DNA from: Elusimicrobiaceae bacterium
Lineage (GTDB): Bacteria; Elusimicrobiota; Elusimicrobia; Elusimicrobiales; Elusimicrobiaceae
Reading direction: 5' to 3'
Length of the DNA stretch: 60,435 nt
NCBI GenBank assembly: GCA_017528825.1
Contig: JAFXOI010000015.1
Span: 1 to 60,435, forward strand
Shown in pieces: positions 1 to 58,399 of the stretch. Position 1 is the stretch's first letter, and the number at the start of each line of letters is the position of its first letter. Below the pieces are notes generated by a model, which did not search any database, was not told the DNA's origin, and saw only the letters and a list, made by a program, of their open reading frames with translations. The translations under genes and the position numbers were made by a program.

Positions 1-183
1 ACACTCGGCACAAAGCAACCGGGTAATTAGTCCGTTCACTTTGTGCCTGCTATCGGCTGCTTTTGGAGTGTGAAGGTGCCTTGAGTATCCTCAAAGCTCT
101 CCGTATTCTGCATACGGTTCCAAAAACAGATTAAATTGTAAGGTGTGCCCTTGCGGGGCGGTGATATCCTCCTTAAAAAGGAT
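1..183 (-). ncRNA. Structured RNA, copy 1 (partial, runs off the left edge)
   Basis: No ORF is visible. Read on the minus strand, the RNA would start near 183 below a strong promoter. It contains a small hairpin (CCGTA at 117-113, TACGG at 105-101) preceded by the block ATCTGTTTTTGGAA, then a long hairpin with stem GGCACAAAG/CTTTGTGCC (47-39 with 15-7) around an inner imperfect stem. The same order of elements recurs at 57171-57386 with compensatory base changes, so the fold is probably conserved. ACACTC (74-69) can also pair with GAGTGT at 6-1. The regulated gene, if any, lies to the left of the window. I could not match it to a known RNA class. Confidence 0.7.
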
Positions 184-26168: not shown

Positions 26169-26241
26169 AGCCAAGACGGGGGATCGAACCCCGGACCTGC
26201 CGCTTACGAAGCGGCTGCTCTACCAGCTGAGCTATCTTGGC
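26169..26241 (-). tRNA. tRNA-Thr (CGT)
   Basis: A full cloverleaf reads on the minus strand. The acceptor is GCCAAGA/TCTTGGC, the D arm is GCTC/GAGC, the anticodon stem is GCCGC/GCGGC with loop TTCGTAA (anticodon CGT, threonine ACG codons), and the T arm is CGGGG/CCCCG with TTCGATC. The 3' CCA is not encoded. A promoter-like TTGTAT-17-TATAGA lies upstream on the same strand. Confidence 0.95.
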
Positions 26242-51061: not shown

Positions 51062-51147
51062 ACATTTCTCCTTAAGTCATATTATAGCAGTTTTGAGAGG
51101 GGGACAATCTTTTCGGGTGAACGTCCCACAAACAAGGATTGTAAAAA

Positions 51148-51482
51148 CGAATGACGGCCCATACCCCAGATTCTGTCGGCGGAAAATTCCGTCGTGAGAA
51201 CCATTACTCTAAGCGGCCTACTTGGTCACGAACGCGGGACACGTATGGACCGGCTTGGCCTTGCTCCGCACGGGGTTTACCCTGCCACACCAGTTACCTG
51301 TTGTGCGGTGCGCTCTTACCGCACCTTTTCACCCTTACCCGAAGGCGGTTTGTTTTCTGCGGCACTTTCCGTACAAACGGTTTTGACCCCGTTTGCCCCG
51401 CCCTTTCGAGCGGCGTGCTACCCTATGGAGTCCGGAAGTTCCTCCCCTGAGTTACCTCAGGAGCGGTTCTCTGGGCCGTCAA
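51148..51482 (-). ncRNA. rnpB: RNase P RNA
   Basis: The catalytic RNA that trims tRNA 5' ends is read on the minus strand. P1 is formed by GACGGCCC (51480-51473) and GGGCCGTC (51160-51153). The conserved P4 segment GAGGAACTTCCGGACTCC lies just inside, and ACAGAATCTGGGGTATGGG is the 3' conserved half. The length, about 335 nt, is normal for type A. Its 5' end begins 3 bp after the RNase H gene, so the two are probably co-transcribed. Confidence 0.96.
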
Positions 51483-57142: not shown

Positions 57143-57164
57143 ATGCGAAATAATTTGTTATACT
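57137..57164 (+). promoter_or_regulatory. Promoter of structured RNA copy 2 and the two-headed pilin
   Basis: TTGTAA (57137-57142, overlapping the esterase stop), a 16-bp spacer and TATACT (57159-57164). Transcription would start near 57171. Confidence 0.65.
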
Positions 57165-57170
57165 AAAAAA

Positions 57171-57386
57171 GACGTATACAATTTTATCTGTTTTTGGAAG
57201 CGTATGTAGAATACGCAGAGCTCTAGTAATAGGGCAAACAGGAAGTCCAAGAACAGTCGTTTAGGTATAAAGTAGACGGCCTTATAACCCGTCTATTTTA
57301 TGCCAAATGTTTATCGTTTTACGATAGACTACGGCTGTTATATGCTTGGGTTACTTCCTGTTGCTCACATATAACGGCCGTTTTTT
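57171..57386 (+). ncRNA. Structured RNA copy 2: riboswitch-like leader of a pilin gene
   Basis: The RNA is non-coding and highly structured. In order it has the block ATCTGTTTTTGGAA shared with copy 1, hairpin GCGTA/TACGC (57200-57204 with 57212-57216), a long nested hairpin GGTATAAAG+TAGACGG with CCGTCTA+TTTTATGCC (57264-57304), a hairpin TATCG/CGATA near 57312-57326, and a terminator. AACAGGAAGTCCAAGAACAG (57237-57256) can pair with 57335-57362, which would break the terminator. That is the architecture of a transcriptional riboswitch. Motifs of c-di-GMP, T-box, cobalamin, SAM and lysine switches are not seen. Confidence 0.72.
57331..57386 (+). terminator. Terminator inside the pilin leader
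   Basis: ACGGCTGTTATAT (57331-57343) pairs with ATATAACGGCCGT (57369-57381), with a 25-nt loop, followed by TTTTTT. Its 5' arm shares CTGTT (57335-57339) with the competing upstream pairing, so termination should be conditional. Confidence 0.8.
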
Positions 57387-57424
57387 ATGTCCGTTTTCCA
57401 AAGACAGATAAAAGGAGAATGGAT

Positions 57425-58399
57425 ATGAAAAATCAAAACGCATTTACCCTCATTGAGTTATTAGTCGTCGTCTTAATTATCGGGGTACTCACCGCTATTG
57501 CCCTGCCGCAATTTCAAACCGCTATGGATAAAAGCCGCTATGCCACTTTAATGCCGCTTGCCAAAAGTGTCGCTAGTGCCCAAGAAGCTTATTATATGAA
57601 CACCGGTGCTTATTCGCCCGACCTGGCCTATTTGGACGTGCAACTGCCGGCCAGTAGCGCCGGAACACAAGCCAACCTAGGCGACGGCGCCACCGTTACA
57701 TTAAGTGAAAAGAAAAACTATGAATATGTAAAACTGAGCAAGGATACCTTGGAAAATAATTATGTGATTTACCAAGAAAAAAGTCCAAACTTCCCCAATG
57801 AAATACATTGTGAGGCCTTGCAAGGGAGCGCGCGGGCTGAAAGATTATGCACCACATTAGGCGGGAAAAAAATAAACGGAGCTTTAAAAAAAGGATATGA
57901 TACGTATGTGTTAGAAGGAGCCGGCACAGACGATTTTTATCCGCAATTTGCCAAAAACTGGAAAGCGGCCGGTATCCCGGAAGAAACGATCGATAAAATG
58001 GTGGATGCCATGACATTTTTGAAAGAGATTATAGAAAGTCGCGAGCGGTATTATGCCGAACATGGCGTTTATCCTTCTTGGGATCAAATGGATATATCTG
58101 TACCGCAAAATTTACGGGCTGGTGATTGGGCGGCAGGAAATGCACAAAATCCAAATACCTATGTGTTTTCTTGCCATGTTTTAAACTCAACTAATGAATG
58201 TATTGCCAACGCGGCTAATAAAGATCTGCCTATGTTCCAGTTTGGAGTAGCAGGCGGGAGTGTGGGGGGGAGTTGTTCAAATTATGGTGGCAAAAATGCT
58301 ACTACCGAAAATATATGCAGTCAAATGACTGTAAGTCGTGAAAGTTTTCCCGGGTGGGGGCATTTTTATGTTATCTCGGATGATATTAATGAGTTATAA
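57425..58399 (+). CDS. Pilin-like protein with two tandem head domains
   Basis: ATG 57425 is chosen because AAGGAG lies 7 bases before it; the ATG at 57419 is too close. The 324 residues start with a class III signal (MKNQNAFTLIELLVVVLIIG). A first pilin head (about 45-150) has EAYYMNTGAYSPD...LDVQLP and ends in a C...LCTTLGG motif. A second head-like part (about 175-320) without signal has RERYYAEHGVYPS...MDISVP and SCSNYGG. It is about twice the length of the other pilins here. It sits behind the RNA leader. Confidence 0.88.
   Translation: MKNQNAFTLIELLVVVLIIGVLTAIALPQFQTAMDKSRYATLMPLAKSVASAQEAYYMNTGAYSPDLAYLDVQLPASSAGTQANLGDGATVTLSEKKNYEYVKLSKDTLENNYVIYQEKSPNFPNEIHCEALQGSARAERLCTTLGGKKINGALKKGYDTYVLEGAGTDDFYPQFAKNWKAAGIPEETIDKMVDAMTFLKEIIESRERYYAEHGVYPSWDQMDISVPQNLRAGDWAAGNAQNPNTYVFSCHVLNSTNECIANAANKDLPMFQFGVAGGSVGGSCSNYGGKNATTENICSQMTVSRESFPGWGHFYVISDDINEL

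Follow-up and report, generated by a model that had tools for sequence, protein, structure and literature searches.

A recurrent leader RNA of Elusimicrobiota proposed to switch transcription, and in many copies also translation, between two states

The window analyzed here is the entire contig JAFXOI010000015.1 (C15; 60,435 bases) of Elusimicrobiaceae bacterium, assembly GCA_017528825.1. A type IV prepilin-like open reading frame is encoded at 57419-58399 on the plus strand, its start being probably the second ATG (57425, MKNQNAFTLIELLVVV), and the N_methyl Pfam domain was detected in sibling genes. The gene is preceded by a structured RNA element of 201 nt (57186-57386, plus strand), a complete copy running to the end of its U tract and matched by our covariance model with an E value of 2.7e-49. 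The original prediction had placed this element at 57171-57386; the element is indeed there, but its true start is at 57186, and positions 57171-57185 belong to the upstream leader. A probable -10 region, TTATACT (57158-57164, plus strand), was recognized by its sequence and is followed by a leader into a conserved ACAATTT box. The arrangement AATTTGTTATACT-N-ACAATTT was also found before many other copies. At many loci, L009, L011, L067 and L099 among them, promoter and box are separated by an additional short hairpin (AAGCC-UUAAACGU-GGCUU, for instance); the L009 hairpin has the loop CUGAUCC, which is one of the P5 loop modules described below. Elsewhere, the window carries an RNase P RNA of class A (51147-51482, minus strand) and a tRNA gene (26169-26241, minus strand), both ordinary.

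All parts of this copy lie on the plus strand. The 5' strand CUGUUUUUGGA (57188-57198) may pair either with the strand UCCAAGAACAG at 57246-57256, giving helix P1 of the putative OFF state, or with a strand beyond the terminator (57394-57409). It is followed by the P2 hairpin, GCGUA-N7-UACGC (57200-57216; 98.8% of cells paired, two-sided changes in 5 of 5 pairs), and by the P3 hairpin, GCUCUA-GUAA-UAGGGC (57220-57235; 92.4% of cells paired), in which every pair covaries and whose length differs among copies. A copy-specific strand, pk5 (AACAGGAAGU, 57237-57246), can form 10 bp with pk3 (57353-57362). The antiterminator 5' strand ACAGUCG (57253-57259) overlaps the P1 3' strand; it is paired with CGGCUGU in 98.0% of cells, and in divergent copies U-A pairs occur as compensatory changes. 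The P5 hairpin (57264-57304) bears an apical 9-nt loop, CC-UUAUAA-C (57280-57288), containing a 6-nt palindrome (57282-57287), while the P6 hairpin GUUUAUCG...CGAUAGAC (57309-57329) is paired in 95.3% of cells and covaries in 12 of 12 pairs. P5, P6 and the antiterminator helix together make a three-way junction. The intrinsic terminator (57332-57386) consists of a stem at 57332-57380, holding pk3 in its loop, and of six U residues (57381-57386), and it opens with the 7 nt of the antiterminator 3' strand. Two further strands precede the gene: an anti-SD strand, UCCGUUUUCC (57390-57399), with a 10 bp complementarity, as read from the sequence, to GGAGAAUGGA (57414-57423), and a second copy of the P1 3' strand, UUUUCCAAAGACAGAU (57394-57409), which is complementary to 57186-57199 and is a candidate anti-anti-SD strand.

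The sequence blocks on which the original prediction relied were all found in the window. In the plus-strand copy, GCGTA-N7-TACGC comes directly after ATCTGTTTTTGGAA, and a further pairing joins GGTATAAAG to TTTTATGCC; in the minus-strand copy, running from 131 to 1, the same block has CCGTA-N7-TACGG behind it, and the corresponding pairing is that of GGCACAAAG with CTTTGTGCC. This second copy, reported at 183-1, is a genuine member of the class but an incomplete one, as had not been noted: the contig end cuts inside it, leaving only the 5' part (1-131, minus strand), with the P1 5' strand within 131-118, P2 at 117-101, P3 at 99-78, the P1 3' strand at 67-57 and P5, with a UAAUUA loop, at 47-7. 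Its 3' half, with P6, terminator and gene, is missing. Positions 1-141 of the window are identical to positions 1-141 of contig C16 (genome G000), both stretches lying inside copies of the element, and the assembly broke at this contig end because the two copies share sequence there. The identical 5' parts perhaps reflect a recent duplication or gene conversion.

The element is highly repeated. The 1.53 Mb genome contains the 14-mer ATCTGTTTTTGGAA 30 times, while the reversed control is absent from it. A covariance model (R1) built from an alignment of 28 complete copies detected 44 full-length copies in the genome at E <= 1e-10, plus two contig-end fragments, and 48 matches at E <= 1e-3. Copies were also found by R1 in most congeners, and order-mates of another family gave only one marginal match. 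A second model (R2), built from 101 hits, matched 73 of 248 sampled Elusimicrobiota genomes at E <= 1e-5, all within two families (f1 and f12). At least 129 copies were counted in one relative (G132; a lower bound, as 150 candidates were scored), 56 in G243, 48 in G053, 25 and 22 in two f12 genomes and 1-9 in many others. The original prediction had suggested that further copies before diverse genes would favor a regulatory RNA, and such copies are present in this genome, in its relatives and across the phylum sample. At about 200 nt each, 129 or more copies in a 1.7 Mb genome amount to about 1.5% of the DNA, a density that is, to our knowledge, exceptional for a structured cis-regulatory RNA. 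A scan of named genomes with an 18-mer of the element returned mostly rumen, gut and fecal Elusimicrobiota (Elusimicrobiaceae, Elusimicrobium, Candidatus Avelusimicrobium), together with a few scattered, chance-like matches. Some divergent members (L093, L094, L131, L262, L263) lack parts of the element. L277 and L347-L351, from f12, diverge as a subclass: their P5 is of another type, with GCUAUG in its loop, their R2 scores are low, and they may be a separate subfamily.

The helices identified are P1 (CUGUUUUUGGA:UCCAAAAACAG), P2, P3, pk5:pk3, the antiterminator helix AT (ACAGYCG:CGGCUGU), P5, P6 and the terminator P7. In a plain MAFFT alignment (A1), the covariation score was 0.479, compared with 0.189 +/- 0.008 after shuffling. 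In the alignment of 101 copies (A2), 60 of the 62 consensus pairs showed a two-sided change in some copy and 1,521 cells were compensated (396 +/- 20 in shuffled data); the score was 0.660, against 0.195 +/- 0.004 for shuffled data and at most 0.110 for slid partners. A third set of 100 independent copies, outside model building (A3), gave 0.667 against 0.210. Because the A2 and A3 alignments were made by fitting copies to the model, its pairs are favored and the percentages flattered; A1 and the partner-swap test are free of this bias. The claim of covariation, originally drawn from two copies, is therefore sustained by pairing scores far outside both kinds of control, and it is so because the genome holds dozens of copies; a mere pair of them would have made only a weak case for a fold.

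The helix pk5:pk3 differs in sequence in nearly every copy, while 96.0% (A2) and 97.5% (A3) of its cells remain paired, with all four pair types occurring in A2. Among the 28 copies of the first set, its mean length was 10.3 bp when the two strands came from the same copy and 5.7 bp when they were swapped. P1 has compensatory changes of its own in divergent copies, and the terminator, accompanied by its U tract, covaries at stem positions 9-17 and in helices 9 and 10. A further antiterminator segment, CCAAA:UUUGG, was about 75% paired, showed few two-sided changes and was broken in several copies, and for these reasons was treated as optional; as a conserved part of the antiterminator it was dropped, since it breaks in copies whose terminator stem covaries.

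Searches against Rfam 15 at the gathering threshold, covering the window and 15 family loci, gave no match over the element, and the only matches, to RNase P, tRNA and 5S rRNA, were all off it. With relaxed filters, the best match to the window copy was unrelated (E = 1.3). These results rule out a known RNA class as represented in Rfam and agree with the initial description of the RNA as unrecognized; the papers we searched, an incomplete coverage of the literature, describe neither a structured RNA from Elusimicrobiota nor a regulatory RNA peculiar to that phylum.

The element lies before genes: 129 of the 192 callable downstream ORFs start within 62 nt of it on the same strand. Prepilin-like proteins, recognized by their N-terminal motif, account for 105 of the 192 copies with a callable downstream ORF. 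The other targets include glycosyltransferases of families 2, 8 and 9, LicD, rhamnan synthesis and polysaccharide synthesis proteins, outer-membrane barrels, lipoprotein-like proteins, HAD hydrolases, and DNA methylases, restriction and SNF2 proteins. The restriction-modification and helicase genes stand behind L077, L090, L097, L104, L120, L273 and L305 and encode N6_N4 methylase, EcoRI methylase, HsdR N-terminus and SNF2/ResIII proteins; the position of the RNA there hints at a control of defense genes. ORFs of at least 50 aa, which bear on the question of a leader peptide, occur in some copies and are absent in others; no codon-level comparison was made. Short palindromic repeats, e.g. around GTCATGCTGAGA or GTCATTCCCGAA, were seen in the start region of the downstream gene at L009, L014, L015, L016, L020, L032, L058 and L080. 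They either separate the RNA from the pilin gene or lie in frame after the start codon, ahead of the FTLIELL motif, and they remind us of the in-frame palindromic elements of Rickettsia.

A dispersed mobile repeat of the MITE or REP type, without any regulatory role, might account for the numerous copies, for the contig breaks within them and for the patchy copy number among relatives. The orientation and the closeness to start codons just described, before genes of various kinds, together with stem pairing kept at high divergence, make this reading hardly tenable, and it was set aside on account of orientation and closeness to start codons.

Taken as a whole, the data make it probable that the element is a new class of Elusimicrobiota cis-acting leader RNA with two alternative states, which switches transcription and, in many copies, translation as well. 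What the sequences show is a set of covarying helices, pairings that exclude one another and a position before genes, while the operation of the switch in cells is inferred in the absence of expression, termination or switching data. In the OFF state, the 5' strand would pair with UCCAAAAACAG to form P1, leaving CGGCUGU free to enter the intrinsic terminator. In the ON state, pk5:pk3, a copy-specific helix of 9-10 bp, and ACAGYCG:CGGCUGU would form an antiterminator around P5, P6 and the three-way junction, which would remove both P1 and the terminator and free the 5' strand. Since the antiterminator 5' strand overlaps the 3' strand of P1, and its 3' strand (AT3) is also the 5' strand of the terminator, P1 with the terminator excludes the single long helix in which the antiterminator continues into pk5:pk3. 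AT3 is nearly invariant, while most changes in its two partners are of the sort that G-U wobble pairing tolerates; judged from these alignments, this is the signature of a strand obliged to pair in two ways.

Folding calculations pointed to the same two states. When the RNA ended before the 3' strand of the terminator, the antiterminator was predicted in 122 of 144 classifiable copies and P1 in none of the 144, whereas full-length RNA was predicted to form the terminator in 136 of 144, 114 of these with P1. Such results are thermodynamic predictions that do not allow for pseudoknots and are not measurements. What is expected of an attenuator, namely a terminator and an antiterminator that exclude each other, is thus met on comparative and predicted, not biochemical, grounds.

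A second level of control is suggested by the strands beyond the terminator. In many copies, a strand following the U tract is complementary to the ribosome-binding site or the start region, as for GUUGUGUUUCA with UGAAACACAAC in the start region of copy L013. Helices with the SD sequence or the start codon scored 7 or more in 36% of own-copy comparisons and in 10% of swapped ones; outside the pilin type, most copies show no clear SD helix. The P1 3' strand is often repeated in this stretch, and a complement of the 5' strand after the terminator scored 8 or more in 32% of copies, compared with 3.8% of shuffled sequences. The freed 5' strand might then pair with the second UUUCCAAAACAG copy past the terminator and so release the ribosome-binding site. 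Since the 5' strand would be free in the ON state, read-through and release of the ribosome site are inferred to be coupled. The original prediction missed this sequestration at the level of translation, as it did the long-range copy-specific helix, the terminator with its competing antiterminator and the self-complementary P5 loops.

The apical loops of P5 are exchangeable modules occurring in several species. UAAUUA, UUAUAA, UCAUGA, UUCGAA, UUGCAA, UCUAGA and UAGCUA are all palindromes, and most 9-nt loops consist of two bases, the 6-nt palindrome and one base. Further modules are GAUC in CUGAUCC, AGCU, GGCC and GACG; the non-palindromic loops are few (UCGCU, CUCGCUA, CUCAUUA). A 6-nt palindrome was present in 21 of 27 distinct loops of at least 8 nt, compared with a mean of 2.5 and a maximum of 9 in shuffles, although the distinct loops are related by descent and the count is not a strict probability. 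No 6-nt palindromes were found in the loops of P2, P3 and P6, which are mostly shorter. Seven different palindromes argue for selection on self-complementarity. The loop type tends to follow the gene class, without statistics: UUAUAA and UUCGAA are found mostly before pilin genes, GAUC and UCAUGA more often before other genes. In L021, L025, L088 and L116, P5 is shortened and has the core AAAGGCGACGGYCUGC, or one close to it, with a GACG tetraloop.

Known counterparts of such loops are the 6-nt palindromic kissing loop of HIV-1 and the GACG kissing loop of Moloney viruses (PMC7357161). The likeness of P5 to the HIV-1 DIS and the Moloney GACG loop is confined to the self-complementary apical loop, palindrome or GACG tetraloop, and the overall folds are unrelated. 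An apical self-complementarity that is kept while the sequence changes is what a DIS-like loop requires, and P5 has it. By analogy, it is inferred but not shown that P5 loops may let two leaders dimerize. Dimerization might even be the primary function, the terminated 200-nt leader being the product and kissing between identical P5 loops coupling or silencing paralogous surface genes. We regard this as a serious possibility that nonetheless falls short of an even chance. It would account for the modular, shared and almost always self-complementary P5 loops, for their 2 + 6 + 1 layout and GACG module with the retroviral parallels (PMC7357161), and for the lack of 6-nt palindromes in the P2, P3 and P6 loops; yet no dimer data exist, contacts through most of the palindromes would be weak given their A/U-rich sequence, a few loops are not palindromic, and the terminator and antiterminator can be explained without it. 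A speculative and rather improbable reading goes further: terminated leaders might influence, in trans, those nascent leaders that share their loop class, via homo- or heterodimers formed through the exchangeable self-complementary P5 loops. If this were true, dozens to more than 100 surface genes would be linked in groups that communicate through RNA alone and determine the pilins and glycosyltransferases produced.

The three-way junction, formed only in the ON state, is the part of the element with conserved unpaired bases. Its strands are J1 (UUUUA, mostly ending in A), J2 (mostly GARU) and J3 (mostly YA), and one junction pair covaries (G-C in 94 copies, A-U in 67, G-U in 11). It is the likeliest place of contact for a ligand, a protein or a dimer; that a signal stabilizes it is inferred, and the identity of the signal is not known. 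A classical riboswitch for a metabolite or a second messenger, e.g. a cyclic dinucleotide, with the junction as its aptamer, would fit the conserved strands UUUUA, GARU and YA, the terminator/antiterminator expression platform and a regulon of pili and surface polysaccharides, and GGDEF proteins are present in the four genomes tested. This reading, for which no ligand-binding data are available, is possible but on the unlikely side: known Rfam riboswitches gave no match, strictly conserved unpaired bases are few for a ligand pocket, and dozens of copies precede unrelated genes, those for restriction-modification included. Cyclic di-GMP itself is not rejected, since GGDEF proteins are present, yet the known c-di-GMP riboswitches do not match.

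A further candidate is a protein-dependent antitermination leader, by analogy with the EAR or LoaP/RfaH systems, which act on surface and horizontally acquired operons; the target genes (pili, glycosyltransferases, outer-membrane proteins) are similar. We consider such a mechanism unlikely here, as no RNA family of this kind matched the element. Each of the four genomes tested has one NusG-family gene and no NusG paralogue, and therefore no paralogue of the LoaP/RfaH type; antitermination by a NusG paralogue was ruled out on this basis, while another protein remains possible.

The proposed leader switch can be compared with several known systems. It shares with terminator/antiterminator riboswitches and attenuators the leader position, the intrinsic terminator, the exclusive helices and the regulation of the adjacent gene, and differs from them in placing two control levels on one 5' strand, in its copy-specific 9-10 bp antiterminator helix, in the lack of an Rfam match and in occurring at least 129 times in one genome. 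T-box leaders are likewise numerous within a genome and choose between terminator and antiterminator; however, the targets of the element are surface and restriction-modification genes and not tRNA-related ones, and the T-box covariance model of Rfam 15 did not match over the element. Riboswitches for c-di-GMP (GEMM) stand before pilin genes in some other bacteria and resemble it in regulon and leader position, but its fold and size differ and no Rfam match was obtained. EAR and LoaP/RfaH leaders share the surface polysaccharide and pili targets, whereas the element contains an intrinsic terminator and a NusG paralogue is absent in the four genomes tested. GOLLD, ROOL and OLE are homo-oligomeric bacterial RNAs (PMC12286853). 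Like them, the element is a structured bacterial RNA with possible self-association, and it has no Rfam match. GOLLD, ROOL and OLE are not known to serve as attenuators before genes. Leaders that choose between a terminator and an antiterminator are a known kind of switch, and no family tested matches the fold, copy number, copy-specific antiterminator, two-level 5' strand and self-complementary loop modules found here. If our reading is correct, one RNA class governs much of the cell surface in gut and rumen Elusimicrobiota, and its copy-specific antiterminators and modular self-complementary loops raise the question of whether bacterial mRNA leaders dimerize, thereby coordinating gene families.
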